Source: a virus. From it: DNA of 42,595 bases. Under the pieces are notes generated by a model that worked only from the letters and a program-made list of their open reading frames with translations, did not search any database and had not been told where the DNA came from. The DNA lies in IMG/VR virus record IMGVR_UViG_3300013233_000087, positions 1 through 42,595 of that record. One strand, given 5' to 3'. A program made the translations under genes and the position numbers. Positions 300 to 42,356 of the stretch are shown here, piece after piece. Each line of letters begins with the position of its first letter. Position 1 is the stretch's first letter.

Positions 300-709
300 C
301 AATAATAAGAAGTTTAACACCAGAGAATCAGAAGGTGTGGTTAGAAAAGAAGGTTGAAGGTGAAGGTTGTAAACTGGCAAAGACACTAGGTGGAATTGCT
401 TACAAGTTCACATCACCACAACGCAGAGCGGTACCTGACAGACTCGTGCTGCTACCTTTCCGAGCAGGGTTCTTCATTGAGTACAAACGGTGGGGCAAGA
501 AGCCTACACCGGCTCAGCTAAGAGAGGGTCATAAGCTGATTAGGATGGGCCAGTACGTGTACTACGTTGATAATGTTAATGACGCTGAGTACATTATCCG
601 TCGATGGGCAATCTGCGATCGACCCGACATGATTGAGTACTCACTTCCCGACTCAAAGATTAAGGCGATGGTGACATCAGCACTACAAGGCGAAGAATGC
701 GATGCTTAA
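296..709 (+). CDS. VRR-NUC domain endonuclease
   Basis: 137 aa. It is recognisable as a stand-alone VRR-NUC (PD-(D/E)XK superfamily) nuclease: residues 47-70 contain PDRLVLLP, a hydrophobic strand, FIEYKRWGKKPTPAQ, in which D, E and K form the expected metal-binding/catalytic set, followed by the usual helix with REGHKLIRMGQYVYYVD. Such proteins are nearly always next to an SNF2-type helicase in phages, as here, and probably act in recombination or in resolving branched replication DNA. The start is GTG at 296 in this copy; in the right-end copy the same gene begins with ATG at 42356. The end overlaps the helicase start by eight bases. Confidence 0.88.
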   Translation: MTIIRSLTPENQKVWLEKKVEGEGCKLAKTLGGIAYKFTSPQRRAVPDRLVLLPFRAGFFIEYKRWGKKPTPAQLREGHKLIRMGQYVYYVDNVNDAEYIIRRWAICDRPDMIEYSLPDSKIKAMVTSALQGEECDA

Positions 710-3700
710 CCCTGAACAACTCCACGGATACCAGAAGACAGCTATCGAGCTGCAGTGCAGTTCACCCTCATCAATGATGTGGCTGGATGTCGGGCTTGGT
801 AAACTGCAACCTAACAGCGAACCTGTTCTCACACCTAATGGGTGGGTCAACATGGGCGACATCAAAGTAGGTATGTACGTTGTCGGCTCAGATGGTCAGC
901 CCACAGAAGTGCTCGGCGTATTCCCTCAAGGTGAACAATCTGTTGTCAGAGTCACATTGTCTGACGGCTCATGGTGTCGAGTGGGCTGGGATCACCTGTG
1001 GTATGTACAGACACGAAACCAACGCACTCGCGATCAAGTGGGCCATGTGATGACTACTCGACAGATAGTGGACAAAGGTATCTGTAGACAGTTCGGTAAG
1101 CGAGAGCTTTATGACTTCTGTATTCCAATGGTGGAGCCTGTTAATTATCAATCATCACCAGTGCAACTCGACCCTTATATATTGGGTGTGATTCTGGGTG
1201 ACGGGACAACAAGTCCGTCAGGTGATGTGACAGTATGCACAGACAGAGACATTATTAATAGCAGCGACATGCTCAGGTATCTGAGAGACCATAAGACCTG
1301 TGACTATGTGGGCTATGGATCATTACCGGGAAAACAATCAATCATCAAGAGTCTGGGTCTCAACGGTAAGCGTAGTTGGGAAAAGTTTATCCCAAGTAAT
1401 TACATGACAGCGCAGATTAATGATCGCTTAGCAATGGTGCAAGGGTTGATGGATAGTGACGGCAGCCCTATTGATAAAGGAGGTGCTGAATTCTCATCAA
1501 CATCAGAACAACTGACTGACGGACTTGTTGAATTGGTTGAGTCGTTGGGCGGTAATGCCAGGAAGAAAGGACCACGCATAACCCGTTATCAAAACGGTGA
1601 AGGTCGTCCATCTTGGCGCGTTAATGTGAAACTCCCATCATCGATGGAACCGTTCAGACTGCAGCGCAAATTAGACAAGTGGGTTCGCCCAACCAAGTAT
1701 CAACCTATGCGGTACATTGTCGATGCTGTTGACGAAGGGGTTGAGGAATCCACCTGTATCAAGGTGGCTGCGAAGGACTCACTCTATGTGACTCGACACC
1801 ATGTTGTCACACACAATACTTCAGTGGCCCTCACAAGCATCGCACACCTCATTGACACAGGATGGCTTGACGCAGTGTTCGTTGTCGCTCCCATCCGTGT
1901 ATGCAGGCTCGTGTGGGCTAAGGAAGCATCTAAGTGGAGTCACACCAACCATCTCAAGTTCTCAATGGTGATGGGCACCAAAGATCAGAGACTCAGAGCA
2001 CTTCACCAGAAGGCAGATGTATATCTCATCAACTATGAAAATCTCAGATGGTTAATGAAAACCCTTAAGCAGTATTATGTAGATAAGGGAAAACCCTTAC
2101 CTGCTAACGGGATTGTTTGGGATGAGATTTCCAAGATGAAGAATAGCAGCACTCAACGTGTCAAAGCTGTGCGTCACATGCTCAAACATTTCAAATGGTT
2201 CACAGGATTGACAGCAACCCCTGCCAGTAACGGATACAAAGACCTGCATGGTCAGTTCTTGGTGGTGGATCAGGGTCAGCGATTAGGTACAGCAAAGAGT
2301 CAATTTGAAGGCGCATACTTTAAGAAGGTGGGCTATAAGTTGGTGCCTCATGAGGATGCCAAGGAAGCCATCCACGCCAAGATCAGTGACATCACGCTTG
2401 AGATGAGTGCTGCCGATTACAATCCTTTACCTGACATGATTGTGAATGATATTGAAGTGGAGCTACCACCGAGTACCAGGCTCCAATACGATCAACTGGA
2501 AAAGGACTACTTCACAAAGCTGGACACGGGCGAAGGCGTTGAGGTGTTCAATGCTGCGTCACTCACCAACAAGCTGCTGCAGATGAGTAATGGTTGTGTG
2601 TATCCGATACCCGGCGCACCTATGTACCAACCTGTGCATGACGCAAAATTAGACGCATTAGAAGACCTGGTTGAAGAACTGTCAGGTCAGCAACTCTTGT
2701 TGTCGTACGCTTACCGAAGCGATGCTGATCGAATAATGAGATTGTTTAATAAGGTGTTGAAGGATTCCCCTCCCATCAACTTAACAGAGTGCAAGACTGA
2801 GAGGTCACTGAAGCAGGCGATGTTAAGGTGGGACACTGGTGATTGCCCGTTGATGATCGGCCATCCTGCATGCCTACACCCAATGACTCAAGTGTTGACT
2901 GAATTGTATGGGTGGATTAGTCTGATCGACGTGAGCACCAGTGACAAAGTGTTCGATGGTGTCGAGTTTGTGTCACATGACGGATGCTCTTATTCGGGCT
3001 ATAAAGATGTGATCGATGTGTTCGGCATCACAATGACGCAGAACCACAAACTTTTAATAAACAATAATTGGGTGGAGGCTCACAATGTTGGAGATAGTGA
3101 AGCAGTTAGACGAGAAGCATTATACGAATACAAAGGCTATGACGATGGTGTTGGTGAAATGTTTGAGATGCGGGACGACATCGAAAATTATCAAACAGAA
3201 CTTCACCAAGCACAACCTGACCAAGAGAGAATATTGTCAGCACTGTGTTCAGGACAGATACCACAATACGACTGGGACTCGTATTTGGAGAATCTGGCAA
3301 GGGATGACAGCAGACGAGGCGATGAAAGACGCGACGGACTCACCTTACGGAAAAGGGAAGCGAGCAACACAAAAACGCATGTCTACGATCTCGTAAACTG
3401 TGGGCCACGTAACAGGTTCATCATCCGAAACGGTGATGGTGAGGCTTTCATCTCACATAATTCAATGGGACACGGAATAGACGGGTTACAAGATGCAGGG
3501 CATAATCTATGCTGGTTTGGTATGAATTGGAGTTTGGATTTCTACGAACAGTTCAATGGTAGGCTCCGTCGTCAAGGCCAAGGCGCGCCCGTTAAGTGTC
3601 ATCGAATCATTGCGCCTGACACTATGGACATGGCGCAGATAGAAGCGTTAAACATTAAGTCGTCCGACCAAGCATCACTGAGGAAAGCTGTAGCAACATA

Positions 3701-3719
3701 CCGTAACAGTCGTCGCTAG
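702..3719 (+). CDS. SNF2-type DEAD/DEAH-like helicase interrupted by two inteins
   Basis: 1005 aa precursor; removal of the two inteins (804-1817 and 2871-3461) leaves 470 aa, the usual size of phage SNF2-type helicases. Extein motifs: Q/I region HGYQKTAIEL, Walker A GLGK|TS (split by intein 1 between K and T), DE-containing motif II in WDEISKMKN near residue 473, motif III TGLTATP near 507, motif V HPA|SMGHGIDGLQ (split by intein 2 after Ala) and motif VI QFNGRLRRQGQ near 950. The protein should be an ATP-driven DNA translocase or branch-remodelling helicase acting with the VRR nuclease encoded just upstream. Both inteins sit in conserved ATPase motifs, so the unspliced protein should be inactive. 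The stop overlaps the convergent endolysin stop in CTAG. Confidence 0.93.
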   Translation: MLNPEQLHGYQKTAIELQCSSPSSMMWLDVGLGKLQPNSEPVLTPNGWVNMGDIKVGMYVVGSDGQPTEVLGVFPQGEQSVVRVTLSDGSWCRVGWDHLWYVQTRNQRTRDQVGHVMTTRQIVDKGICRQFGKRELYDFCIPMVEPVNYQSSPVQLDPYILGVILGDGTTSPSGDVTVCTDRDIINSSDMLRYLRDHKTCDYVGYGSLPGKQSIIKSLGLNGKRSWEKFIPSNYMTAQINDRLAMVQGLMDSDGSPIDKGGAEFSSTSEQLTDGLVELVESLGGNARKKGPRITRYQNGEGRPSWRVNVKLPSSMEPFRLQRKLDKWVRPTKYQPMRYIVDAVDEGVEESTCIKVAAKDSLYVTRHHVVTHNTSVALTSIAHLIDTGWLDAVFVVAPIRVCRLVWAKEASKWSHTNHLKFSMVMGTKDQRLRALHQKADVYLINYENLRWLMKTLKQYYVDKGKPLPANGIVWDEISKMKNSSTQRVKAVRHMLKHFKWFTGLTATPASNGYKDLHGQFLVVDQGQRLGTAKSQFEGAYFKKVGYKLVPHEDAKEAIHAKISDITLEMSAADYNPLPDMIVNDIEVELPPSTRLQYDQLEKDYFTKLDTGEGVEVFNAASLTNKLLQMSNGCVYPIPGAPMYQPVHDAKLDALEDLVEELSGQQLLLSYAYRSDADRIMRLFNKVLKDSPPINLTECKTERSLKQAMLRWDTGDCPLMIGHPACLHPMTQVLTELYGWISLIDVSTSDKVFDGVEFVSHDGCSYSGYKDVIDVFGITMTQNHKLLINNNWVEAHNVGDSEAVRREALYEYKGYDDGVGEMFEMRDDIENYQTELHQAQPDQERILSALCSGQIPQYDWDSYLENLARDDSRRGDERRDGLTLRKREASNTKTHVYDLVNCGPRNRFIIRNGDGEAFISHNSMGHGIDGLQDAGHNLCWFGMNWSLDFYEQFNGRLRRQGQGAPVKCHRIIAPDTMDMAQIEALNIKSSDQASLRKAVATYRNSRR
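804..1817 (+). mobile_element. Intein 1: class 3-type intein with LAGLIDADG endonuclease, in Walker A
   Basis: 338 aa inserted between Lys34 and Thr of the helicase GKT motif. The N-terminal residue is Leu, not Cys/Ser. The features fit a class 3 intein with the WCT set: block B has H-L-W (WDHLWYV), block F has the Cys of STCIKV, and block G ends VVTHN with Thr before His; the +1 extein residue is Thr. Two dodecapeptide-like motifs, YILGVILGDG and MVQGLMDSDG, show a LAGLIDADG homing endonuclease domain, so the element may be mobile. Boundaries are set by restoring GLGK-TSVAL and by the terminal HN. Confidence 0.9.
2871..3461 (+). mobile_element. Intein 2: class 1-type intein in helicase motif V, hosting a nested ORF
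   Basis: 197 aa inserted after Ala of HPA-SMGHGI. It begins with Cys (CLHPMTQVLTE), has block B TQNH (ITMTQNHKLL), a WVEAHNVGD element typical of the Hint fold, block F VYDLVNCGPRNRF and ends SHN before Ser+1, the classical class 1 layout. No LAGLIDADG motif is seen in this frame. Between the NVGD element and block F the intein frame has an odd, charged, low-quality composition, while the +1 frame there reads as a convincing zinc-finger protein (3085-3396). Splicing should restore motif V of the helicase. Confidence 0.9.
3085..3396 (+). CDS. Nested zinc-finger ORF in alternative frame inside intein 2 (candidate homing endonuclease or remnant)
   Basis: 103 aa in the +1 frame relative to the helicase/intein. 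ATG at 3085 is preceded by GGAGG (3074-3078) at six bases, an ideal Shine-Dalgarno arrangement lying inside the intein codons for WVEAH. The protein has a CxxC...CxxC zinc-ribbon-like module (KCLRCGTTSK then REYCQHC, about residues 26-55) and a C-terminal segment RIWQGMTADEAMKDA...YGKGKRATQKR that resembles DNA-binding tails of phage HNH-type endonucleases. No complete catalytic motif is evident. It starts at the last conserved element before the endonuclease insertion point and stops just before block F. It could be a free-standing gene, the product of a frameshift, or the remnant of an in-frame domain. Confidence 0.62.
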   Translation: MLEIVKQLDEKHYTNTKAMTMVLVKCLRCGTTSKIIKQNFTKHNLTKREYCQHCVQDRYHNTTGTRIWRIWQGMTADEAMKDATDSPYGKGKRATQKRMSTIS

Positions 3720-37696: not shown

Positions 37697-38470
37697 ATGT
37701 CACAAATAATGTTCACAAATGTACGTGTTAGTTTCCCTAACCTGATTGAAGCGCGGCAAACTAACGCACAGAACCCTGCTAAGTATTACGGGTTAGACAT
37801 GTTGTTTCAACAAGATAACCCTGCGTTTGCTCAGTTCTGGGCCGCGTACCAAGAGTTAGCGGTTGCTAAGTGGAAAGATCAAGCTGAGGCGGTGATGGGT
37901 ATGATCGGTCAAGACCGTAAAAAGCGTTGCTATGGTCAAGGTGAAGAACGTATGAGCCAGAAGACTATGCAAGTGTTGGATGGTTATCATGGTCAGTTTT
38001 ACATCTCAGCAAAAGAGAAGGAAGAACGCGGTCGCCCAATGATTGTTGATGCAGATGGTGTACCAATCGATAAAGCTAACACCATGGCAGAGGTCGCAGA
38101 AGCGCGTCGCGTCTATGGTGGGTGCTACGCTAATGTATTGGTATCTCCTTGGTTATGGGATAACGATAACGGTAAGGGTGTTAGCTGCAATTTACTTGCC
38201 GTGCAGTTCAGCTCAGATGGCGAACCGTTTGGTGAGAATACATCTATTGACACCAGTGCGTTTGGTGCTGTTGCTGCCGCTCCTGTTGCTGCCGCTCCTG
38301 TTGCTGCCGCTCCTGTTGCTGCCGCTCCTGTTGCTGCCGCTCCTGTTGCTGCCGCTCCTGTTGCTGCCGCTCCTGTTGCTGCCGCTCCTGTTGCTGCCGC
38401 TCCTGTTGCTGCCGCTCCTGTTGCTGCCGCTCCTGGAGGCATGCCACCTTTACCCACATTTATCCAATGA
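37697..38470 (+). CDS. DUF2815 ssDNA-binding-like protein with VAAAP repeat tail
   Basis: 257 aa. The N-terminal 190 residues match DUF2815 (SQIMFTNVRVSFPNLIEA, AKYYGLDMLF, DGYHGQFYISAKEKEERGRP, GCYANVLVSPWLWDN), a T7 gp2.5-like OB-fold family always found beside DUF2800 nucleases. The C-terminal part is a linker of 11 exact VAAAP units followed by GGMPPLPTFIQ. A long flexible linker ending in a short hydrophobic tip recalls SSB proteins, whose tail recruits partners, although no acidic tail is present. GGAG is seven bases upstream. Confidence 0.88.
   Translation: MSQIMFTNVRVSFPNLIEARQTNAQNPAKYYGLDMLFQQDNPAFAQFWAAYQELAVAKWKDQAEAVMGMIGQDRKKRCYGQGEERMSQKTMQVLDGYHGQFYISAKEKEERGRPMIVDADGVPIDKANTMAEVAEARRVYGGCYANVLVSPWLWDNDNGKGVSCNLLAVQFSSDGEPFGENTSIDTSAFGAVAAAPVAAAPVAAAPVAAAPVAAAPVAAAPVAAAPVAAAPVAAAPVAAAPVAAAPGGMPPLPTFIQ
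38270..38434 (+). repeat. 15-bp tandem repeat, 11 perfect copies (VAAAP)
   Basis: GTTGCTGCCGCTCCT is repeated 11 times without a single base change over 165 bases. Every copy uses the same codons, although Ala and Pro have four choices each, which points to recent slippage rather than protein-level selection. The frame is kept because the unit is five codons long. Confidence 0.97.
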
Positions 38471-39043: not shown

Positions 39044-39164
39044 AATTAAACAATTAGATTATACCCTTGGTGTAATACGCTATGATTTTGAGGCCAACTT
39101 TAAAGATAGGCAAGACACTATTGATTACGACAATACACAGCGAGCTCAGGAGAACATGAAATGA
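39033..39164 (+). CDS. Small accessory protein (43 aa), unknown
   Basis: GTG 39033 to TGA 39162-39164: MTTEIKQLDYTLGVIRYDFE, then a polar C-terminus ending RAQENMK. It overlaps the previous gene by 11 bases and the next by four (ATGA), the pattern of translational coupling seen throughout. Short and with a GTG start, so moderately supported. Confidence 0.5.
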   Translation: MTTEIKQLDYTLGVIRYDFEANFKDRQDTIDYDNTQRAQENMK

Positions 39165-39862
39165 AAAAATTTGAATTAACTAACGAAACAACAGAATACC
39201 TAGGTAAAAAATTGTATCGAATCAAGGCACTTCGCTCGTTCGGCTCTATTGAAGAAGGTGAGCTTGGCGGTTTTGTCGCCAAAGAATCGAACTTAGATCA
39301 AGAAGGCGATGCTTGGGTATCTGGCGATGCTCAGGTATTTGAAGATGCTCGGGTATATGGTGAAGCTCGGGTATCTGGTGAAGCTCGGGTATTTGGTGAA
39401 GCTTGGGTATTTGGTGATGCTCAGGTATCTGGTGATGCTCAGGTATTTGGTAATGCTGAGATATTTGGTGATGCTCAGGTATTTGGTGATGCTTGGGTAT
39501 CTGGTAATGCTCAGGTATCTGGTGATGCTCATGTATCTGGTAATGCTCAGGTATTTGGTAATTCTCAGGTATTTGGTTGTGATAGATCTAAAGGAAAATC
39601 AAAAGTAATTAGGATGGCTGATTCATCTGGAGATTCATTTCATGATACCCCATTAAGCCTGCTACAAGAAGCAATCAAAGACATAACAGAAGACCGCAGC
39701 AACTTAGCTAGGTGTAATAAACTTCTAATTCTTGGCCTCAATACAGAAGATGACATGTTCGATGTAAGTTTCATGCAGGCAAGGATGAGAATGAGCGAAT
39801 GCGTTACACTGTGTACTGCAGCAAACACAATCTTTTTAAGAGAGATGGGGTATGCCCAATGA
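39161..39862 (+). CDS. Beta-helix (hexapeptide-like) repeat protein
   Basis: 233 aa. After a 45-residue domain (FELTNETTEYLGKKLYRIKA, ELGGFVAKESNL) there are about 16 tandem six-residue units of the form GDAQVF/GDAWVS/GEARVF (about 49-140), the signature of a left-handed or pseudo beta-helix. A C-terminal helical domain (about 165-233) follows. Proteins of this kind occur in phages and bacteria without clear function; a right-angled, stiff helix could mimic DNA or bind a partner. AGGAG lies nine bases before the ATG. The underlying 18-base repeats are near-identical. Confidence 0.8.
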   Translation: MKKFELTNETTEYLGKKLYRIKALRSFGSIEEGELGGFVAKESNLDQEGDAWVSGDAQVFEDARVYGEARVSGEARVFGEAWVFGDAQVSGDAQVFGNAEIFGDAQVFGDAWVSGNAQVSGDAHVSGNAQVFGNSQVFGCDRSKGKSKVIRMADSSGDSFHDTPLSLLQEAIKDITEDRSNLARCNKLLILGLNTEDDMFDVSFMQARMRMSECVTLCTAANTIFLREMGYAQ

Positions 39863-40403: not shown

Positions 40404-42356
40404 ATGGCACAAGTGTACGATTTAGAAACATACCCGAACTTCTTCCTCGCGTGTATTGAGGCAGATGACACAGGTCAGAGATGGGAATTTGTGTGTGATG
40501 ACACGCGCAATGATTGGCCTGAATTCTTAAGTTGGTTAACCTTGTGGGGGAGCACTCGCGCGGTGATGACAGGGTTTAATAGTGTAGGGTTCGACTATCC
40601 TGTGCTGCACCATCTACTCAAGCTGGACACATCGGAAGCCACAGGTGTTCAGATAGCCAATGCTGCGTATGCGAAAGCAATGCAGATAATCCAAACACCA
40701 TGGGATCAACGCTTCAGTAACCGCATCTGGGACACTGACTGTATGGTGAAACAGCGCGATCTATTCATCATCAATCACTTCGACAACCCTGCTAAGTCAA
40801 CATCGCTGAAGCAGATTGAGTTCAACATGCGAATGATGAACGTGCAAGAGTTACCGATCCCTGTCGGTACAGAGAACCTGACACCACAGGATAAGCAGAT
40901 CATCATTGATTACTGTTGGAATGATATGGAAGCAACAATGGCGTTTAACAACTCGTGTCGTGATGATGTTGAGTTCCGAGAACACTTACGACTTGAGTAT
41001 GGTAGCGACTTCACCAACATGAACGATGCTAAAGTGGGTGGTCAGATAATGATCAACCGACTCAAAGATGCGGGGGTTGAGTGTTATGAGTACATCAATA
41101 AAAAGAAGACAGTCAGACAAACTAAGCGTGGTCGCATCAACTTAGGTGATGTCATCTTCCCTTACATCCAGTTCAGATCACCAGAGTTCAATGCGCTGCT
41201 CGACAAGTTCAGGAGCATTACCATTAAGGATACTCGCAAGGCCCCTGAGGTGGATGGCATGCACGTCATCTATAAAGGGTTCAAGTACGACTACGGTCTT
41301 GGTGGGATACATGGATCAGTGGAGTCACAGATCATCAGAGCCACCAACACTCGTATGATACTCGACATCGATGTCACAGGCTTTTATCCGTCATTAGGTA
41401 TCGCTAACAGCCTGTATCCTGAGCACCTTGGTATCGAGTTCTGTGATATATCGAACGATGTTAAGACTGAGCGAGCACAGTATTCAAAAGGAACATCACA
41501 GAACTTAGCAATGAAGATGGCAGGCAATGCCACCTACGGTAACTCGAACAACCAGTACAGCCCGTTCTTTGACTCGAAGTACACCATGTCGATCACCATC
41601 AATGGTCAACTACTGCTCACCATGCTTGCTGAGTGGTTAGGTGACGTTCATTCGCTGAGAACCATACAAGCGAACACCGATGGTCTGACCATTGAGGTTG
41701 ATCGCGATCAATACGACGCAGTGATGGAGCGATGCGATGCTTGGTGTGACTACACTAAGTTAGAACTTGAATACGCTGAATACGACATCATGCCGATACG
41801 CGATGTTAATAATTACATGGCCCGCACAGTCGATGGGAAGATCAAACGTAAAGGAGCATATGAATGGAATAAGCTGCATCATCAGGATCAATCATTCCTA
41901 GTGGTCGCTAAGATCACTGAGAAGGTGCTGCTCGATGACGCCCCCATCACTGACACACTCAAATCATGGCCCGATGTGTTCGATTTCATGGGCCGCACTA
42001 AGGTTCCTAAGAGTGGACGGTTGATGATTGATGACGGTCACGACAGAACACAAGTGCAGAACTTGAGTCGCTATCTGGTGACTGAAGAGGGTGGTAAAAT
42101 GATTAAGATACTACCACCACTGTGCGCTAACCGTGAAGAAGCTGAGCTACGGATTAAGAAGTTGAAGAACCAGCCGAAGGATGCGCAGGCTTATGAGGAT
42201 CGAGTGATGACCCTGCTGTCTGAGCGCGAGACTGTAATGGCGTCGGGAAACAACGTAACCATTTGCAACAACATGAGCGAGATTGCTTGGATGACACCAA
42301 TCAACTTCGCATTCTACGAGAATAAAATTCAAAAATTAGTTATGGGATTGGAGTAA
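40404..42356 (+). CDS. Family B DNA polymerase with 3'-5' exonuclease
   Basis: 650 aa from ATG 40404, with GAGG six bases upstream. Exonuclease: Exo I VYDLETYP (Asp6, Glu8), Exo II TGFNSVGFDYPVL near 60, Exo III DYCWNDMEAT near 170. Polymerase: motif A DIDVTGFYPSL near 320, motif B NLAMKMAGNATYGN near 370 and motif C ANTDGLTIEV near 423, where the usual DTD is NTD. This is a short family B enzyme rather than the T7-type family A polymerase, although the virion is T7-like. Its terminal TAA shares one base with the next ATG (TAATG) at the right end, whereas at the left end the DUF3310 gene intervenes. Confidence 0.9.
   Translation: MAQVYDLETYPNFFLACIEADDTGQRWEFVCDDTRNDWPEFLSWLTLWGSTRAVMTGFNSVGFDYPVLHHLLKLDTSEATGVQIANAAYAKAMQIIQTPWDQRFSNRIWDTDCMVKQRDLFIINHFDNPAKSTSLKQIEFNMRMMNVQELPIPVGTENLTPQDKQIIIDYCWNDMEATMAFNNSCRDDVEFREHLRLEYGSDFTNMNDAKVGGQIMINRLKDAGVECYEYINKKKTVRQTKRGRINLGDVIFPYIQFRSPEFNALLDKFRSITIKDTRKAPEVDGMHVIYKGFKYDYGLGGIHGSVESQIIRATNTRMILDIDVTGFYPSLGIANSLYPEHLGIEFCDISNDVKTERAQYSKGTSQNLAMKMAGNATYGNSNNQYSPFFDSKYTMSITINGQLLLTMLAEWLGDVHSLRTIQANTDGLTIEVDRDQYDAVMERCDAWCDYTKLELEYAEYDIMPIRDVNNYMARTVDGKIKRKGAYEWNKLHHQDQSFLVVAKITEKVLLDDAPITDTLKSWPDVFDFMGRTKVPKSGRLMIDDGHDRTQVQNLSRYLVTEEGGKMIKILPPLCANREEAELRIKKLKNQPKDAQAYEDRVMTLLSERETVMASGNNVTICNNMSEIAWMTPINFAFYENKIQKLVMGLE

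Follow-up and report, generated by a model that had tools for sequence, protein, structure and literature searches.

The helicase gene of IMG/VR virus record IMGVR_UViG_3300013233_000087 (positions 1 to 42,595, the whole stretch analysed here and called the window) contains an intein with a second, out-of-frame coding sequence of unusual position. Canonical inteins carry their homing endonuclease (LAGLIDADG or HNH) in frame, as part of the polypeptide that is spliced out. Here a zinc-finger ORF lies in another frame, with a ribosome-site-like sequence of its own, and the question is what such a gene does inside an intein and how it came to be there. The first-pass annotation of this DNA had offered two explanations, a free-standing DNA-binding or homing gene overprinted on the intein, and an in-frame domain displaced by two compensating frameshifts. 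Our preferred answer, to which we assign a probability of roughly 0.87, is a two-frame intein with a separate HNH-family endonuclease, of which the window ORF would be a core-deleted, probably inactive remnant.

The window has an exact terminal repeat of at least 51 nt (positions 1–51 equal 42289–42339), which suggests a complete genome with redundant ends. It also contains 15-nt tandem repeats (APVAA) at 38268–38450, near the end of ORF 37697–38470, and 18-nt tandem repeats (a hexapeptide, e.g. VSGDAQ/VFGDAQ) at 39255–39631, in ORF 39161–39862. The helicase ORF and the features of intein 2 described below lie on the plus strand.

Intein 2 and its second reading frame

The host gene, ORF 702–3719, encodes in frame 0 an SNF2-type SF2 helicase with two inteins and matches Pfam SNF2-rel_dom (E=1.5e-11) and the PHROG DNA helicase family phrog_62 (E=1.8e-106). 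Intein 1 (804–1817) sits in Walker A (GLGK|T) and has Leu, not Cys/Ser, as its first residue. With DHLW, a block F Cys (STC) and a T before HN it resembles class 3 inteins, and it matches LAGLIDADG_3; one helicase therefore holds two intein classes and two endonuclease types. Intein 2 (2871–3461, 197 aa) is inserted in helicase motif V (HPA|SMGHGID). Its boundaries, set by aligning 28 relatives, run from C1 (CLHPMTQ) to the HN preceding the extein S+1 (SMGHGID). The class 1 Hint motifs C1, TMTQNH, HN and S+1 are all there, and C1, block B T/H, block F/G and HN are invariant over 28–30 aligned inteins.

The predicted structure of intein 2 is a Hint fold. The model has a pLDDT of 91–98 over residues 1–100 and 171–197, reaching 96–97 from residue 171 in the C-terminal Hint part with blocks F and G (3381–3461), and is disordered at residues 106–132 and 144–160. 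Its best VIA matches are inteins without exception, with Z up to 15.3; among them is the gp41-1 intein (Z 15.3, rmsd 2.0, 111 residues). Motifs and model together point to a class 1 Hint intein that would excise itself from the helicase. Both halves lie on one continuous host ORF, as expected of an intein that is not split. Intein-free (empty) helicase alleles that read uninterrupted over the junction are common among phage records: a joined-extein query was covered to at least 80% in one place by 1453 of them, mostly as a single piece across the junction. Pfam and NCBIfam held no useful family for the intein proteins or the nested proteins, a PDB sequence search gave weak matches for the intein and was uninformative for the nested family, and a viral-contig search with the window intein as query returned no relatives.

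Inside intein 2, a 103-codon ORF (3085–3396) occupies the +1 frame of the helicase ORF, as the first-pass annotation had it. Its further description was also accurate in most respects. A GGAGG Shine-Dalgarno-like site (3074–3078) stands six bases 5' of the ATG at 3085; two CxxC pairs, CLRC (3160–3171) and CQHC (3235–3246), delimit a zinc-finger segment (3160–3246) whose cysteines are conserved in the nested alignment; the C-terminus is basic; and the ORF begins inside the Hint element WVEAHNVGD. Its end had been placed just before block F and lies instead within it, the TAA (3394–3396) overlapping the 'LVN' codons of VYDLVNCGP at the start of the C-terminal Hint part. The intein frame across the overlap had been called an odd charged linker, which is apt for part of it; however, host residues up to ~103 belong to a confidently predicted Hint fold. 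The first ~30 nested codons overlap these residues, and both frames are therefore constrained there.

Taken by itself, the 103-aa product is hard to name. Residues 13–52, in the zinc-finger region, match ROS_MUCR weakly (E=1.3e-4), and membership was rejected because the score is under the family's gathering score. A phage search with the ORF gave only insignificant HNH matches (E about 2), because the core is missing, as described below. Permuting synonymous codons without changing the intein protein produced an open stretch as long as this one in either other frame in 191 of 20,000 permutations (0.96%), which for the window alone is only moderate evidence.

Full-length relatives and the deleted core

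Comparison with relatives provides the decisive evidence against chance: a shared start, a shared zinc finger and substitutions that follow the nested frame. A viral-contig search with the nested ORF as query found two IMG/VR contigs (L002 and L003) in which this intein, at an identical helicase site, carries a 222-aa +1 ORF, and the window nested protein is 64% identical to theirs. Nested proteins from 28/28 non-window loci at this site share one start position in the alignment as well as the zinc finger, and the full-length product is a zinc-finger/HNH-family protein of ~220 aa. In the alignment the zinc finger is followed by TRIWxIWxGMK, YGGRGI, W..F..FY.DM and LTIERIDVNxxYSKENCRW, and the C-terminal part reads HLAELCR..GxSK...RLNRGM.

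The nested proteins match PHROG HNH endonuclease families (phrog_3377, E=4e-43; phrog_374, E=4e-33). An AlphaFold2 model of a nested HNH protein has a mean pLDDT of 87.7, and its best VIA match is the HNH enzyme PacI over nested residues 67–153 (rmsd 2.5, 76 residues), with a Z of 6.8, in a range that can be coincidental. Together, the PHROG families and the PacI match place an HNH core in the full-length relatives. None of the Pfam HNH models matched the nested proteins and Foldseek of the model against the PDB returned nothing significant, for which reason the name HNH rests mainly on the PHROG families.

The nested start is conserved beyond the demands of the host protein sequence at that point. 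It is ATG in 27/28 relatives and GTG in 1/28, at a constant alignment position, and a purine-rich site lies upstream in 29/29 cases, window included. The host residues at this position vary (N/D/H/G, then V/A), yet 23/23 representatives have T as the host wobble base; host codon usage gives this a log10 P of about -10, without correction for relatedness. Substitutions were counted by host codon position between related inteins in disjoint pairs. In the flanking Hint regions, counts at positions 1/2/3 were 84/56/225 for the +1 families and 7/2/15 for the +2 families; in the overlap they were 648/283/243 and 20/68/30, respectively. The fastest position in the overlap is the nested wobble base, i.e. 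host position 1 in +1 cases and position 2 in +2 cases. Such a peak is expected neither from host-frame coding alone nor from the absence of coding, and selection has therefore acted on the nested gene. The alignment of relatives thus bears out the first of the two initial explanations, a homing-type DNA-binding gene with its own start, overprinted on the intein where an endonuclease domain normally sits.

The alignment shows that the window ORF is no small zinc-finger gene complete in itself; it is an internally deleted form of the ~220-aa HNH-family gene. Window DNA 3282–3320 joins two sites that are 318 nt apart in most relatives (315–330 nt overall). The junction lies at 3299–3307, within AAGGGATGA, and about 318 nt of the relatives are missing there; its left side corresponds to their IWRIWQG site and its right side to their GMTADEA site, and GG-ATG is common to both. 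The lost segment comprises the HNH core and a helix-turn-helix-like part, while the zinc finger and the tail stay joined in frame; the window ORF accordingly has no HNH catalytic core. Recombination between the two GG-ATG repeats would account for the loss. The two repeats share one nested frame, so that a multiple of three nucleotides was removed; the host frame therefore stayed open and splicing can go on. The 15 most conserved zinc-finger columns show no deviation in the window, which points to a recent loss or to a finger that continues to be used. In all probability the window holds an immobile remnant: its ORF was probably truncated recently and is probably inactive, and the intein would be heading to an immobile mini-intein. 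The window is a degenerate member of a class of inteins with an out-of-frame HNH gene.

In the mechanism that we propose, one DNA segment gives two products in this intein subfamily. Frame 0 would provide the Hint splicing domain and a disordered linker, which excise themselves from the helicase, and frame +1 would provide a separate zinc-finger/HNH-family endonuclease, translated from its own ribosome site and ATG. Judged by its family and by the arrangement, the endonuclease would cut intein-free helicase alleles and so allow the intein to spread.

Distribution of the arrangement and competing explanations

The occurrence of the arrangement was surveyed with a search seeded by the Hint N-terminal part only (the splicing domain), using a five-row alignment with all rows from HNH carriers; the query was not picked by HNH presence. 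The best 80 of 336 matches were used. The search gave 79 distinct viral loci plus five genome loci; both ends were found in 71 viral inteins, 66 of them at least 250 aa long. Within the same best 80 of 336, HNH was out of frame in all 66 full-length inteins (56 in +1, 10 in +2, none in frame), and with near copies removed and genome loci added, the numbers were 51 in +1, 9 in +2 and 3 with none detected. Out-of-frame HNH thus appears to be the rule within this subfamily. The architecture had been described as unusual, which is correct as a departure from in-frame fusion, but it is no one-off. Among the insertion sites are several in DNA polymerase I as well as several helicase sites. Since the nested gene is found in +1 in some inteins and in +2 in others, the arrangement probably arose or was re-registered more than once; on the Hint tree, in which many forks are weak, the frame label takes three changes and the full/mini state six. 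The minis L041, L045, L052 and L061 retain fragments in the nested frame and L086 has none, and the shorter inteins with fragments appear to represent several independent losses.

Among cultured phages, the nested gene is annotated in APSE-1 and SO-1 and unannotated in SFCi1, LP31, VT223, RLK and EBPR siphovirus 2. The host frame is broken or shifted in the intein region of L040 (1267–2126) and of L093 (4001–4945, an Arsenophonus genome contig), copies that are possibly decaying. In five loci (L036, L055, L058, L076 and L089), a second HNH-family ORF lies near the intein-containing gene. It is likely, on this survey, that the division of splicing and homing by overprinting defines a widespread class of phage inteins, with +1 and +2 forms at many polymerase and helicase sites and decay by deletions after which both frames are still open.

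The alternatives differ in which of these observations they would explain. A truncated 103-aa protein that is still produced and serves a purpose, for example as a zinc-finger binder of the old homing site or as a repressor of its own message, is unlikely. The start codon, the ribosome site, the four zinc cysteines and the 15 most conserved finger positions are intact in the window, and the ORF is still open as far as its stop in block F; yet a recent deletion would leave the same picture, the ORF lacks the HNH core and the helix-turn-helix-like segment, and the truncation is found in no relative, other short inteins keeping broken fragments only. A different proposal denies the endonuclease an independent start: ribosomes would shift frame in a programmed manner from the helicase frame, and the product would be fused to the N-extein and the N-terminal part of Hint. 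Most families have their nested frame in +1, a shift for which programmed frameshifting is known, but ATG or GTG at one position and the upstream purine-rich site are kept in 29/29 loci, even where the host residues differ. Moreover, only one or two codons are open before the nested ATG at some loci (L020), and +1 and +2 arrangements both occur. Conservation of the start codon and of the site upstream of it favours independent initiation, and frameshifting seems improbable.

The remaining explanations fare worse. A group I (RNA) intron in place of an intein might be suggested by the annotation of Sodalis phage SO-1 gp38/gp39 with a type I self-splicing intron, but no Rfam group I match was obtained at the gathering threshold in seven loci (the window region and six relatives), and frame 0 is open across the insertion in nearly all loci and has both the invariant Hint motifs and a model with intein-like fold; we rejected this very improbable reading on the absence of an Rfam core and on the motifs and fold of frame 0. 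An artefact, in which sequencing or assembly indels displaced an in-frame domain, could be entertained for a window that is a single virus record without reads. It is refuted by the relatives and has scarcely any probability left: the arrangement recurs across 63 non-redundant loci, in both frames, and in the cultured phages APSE-1, SO-1, SFCi1 and LP31, and the substitution spectra show coding in both frames. The second initial explanation, two compensating frameshifts, falls with it, as dozens of independently assembled relatives show the same arrangement. Least probable of all, to a negligible degree, is an ORF that arose by chance and resembles a zinc finger by accident. Open stretches of that length do turn up in about 1% of permutations, but the identity to L002/L003, the shared start, the HNH-family continuation and the substitution pattern refute it. 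A two-frame intein with a separate HNH-family endonuclease remains the preferred reading.

Known systems and significance

Parts of this arrangement are already known, as isolated annotations (APSE-1 P46, SO-1 gp39) and as out-of-frame HNH without a splicing domain (ShiLan). In APSE-1, a Hamiltonella phage, the P45 DNA polymerase and P46 likewise combine a Hint intein with an HNH-family gene in +1, and the overlap is annotated; it differs from the window in its polymerase host and full-length nested gene, and P46 is annotated as 140 aa only. We found no discussion of P46 as an intein-nested gene in the literature, the mention in PMC549080 being a reference only. SO-1 gp38/gp39 and Jerseyvirus polymerases (e.g. 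Salmonella phage LP31) also have an HNH-family gene out of frame in an intein, but in the +2 frame and with another N-terminal arrangement; in LP31 and VT223 the nested gene is unannotated. The SO-1 region annotated as the type I intron (L005, 1597–4785) is by sequence a Hint intein with a nested +2 HNH.

The ShiLan domain of actinobacteriophage methylases similarly hides a zinc-finger/HNH endonuclease out of frame in an insertion through which the host gene stays open, and its authors detected neither a splicing domain nor a ribosome site (PMC11855218). The full-length relatives described here share the out-of-frame HNH ORF in a host-open insertion, of which the window is a truncated form, whereas their host frame is a detectable Hint intein and a ribosome-site-like sequence precedes the nested start. 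Overlapping frames are called frequent in actinobacteriophages in the same paper, which cites Gosselin, Arsenault and Gogarten 2025 and Gorbalenya 1998 (PMC11855218), and the Felix O1 genome paper took out-of-frame HNH genes as ruling out inteins (PMC3185647). In the literature other than the Gosselin preprint and Gorbalenya 1998, we found no description of an out-of-frame-HNH class in inteins. The former, on bioRxiv (10.1101/2025.01.02.630785), reportedly deals with actinobacteriophage inteins of 'non-canonical architecture' and may describe related arrangements; the latter is said to concern 'Non-canonical inteins'.

In canonical inteins, the endonuclease likewise lies between Hint blocks B and F and has the same proposed homing role, but it belongs to the spliced polypeptide, whereas here a different frame is predicted to yield it as a product of its own. 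Split inteins whose halves flank a free-standing endonuclease gene, reportedly described by Dassa in 2009, also place splicing and homing on separate polypeptides at one locus; here, in contrast, the intein is unsplit and the genes overlap.

A whole intein subfamily breaks the rule of the in-frame endonuclease, and even in well-sequenced phages most of its nested genes lack annotation. The subfamily offers a natural system for overlapping genes, in which flanking Hint, +1 overlap and +2 overlap each have a different fast codon position. The homing cycle is caught at several stages, from inteins with an intact nested gene, through the core-deleted form of the window and those with fragments, to inteins with none.
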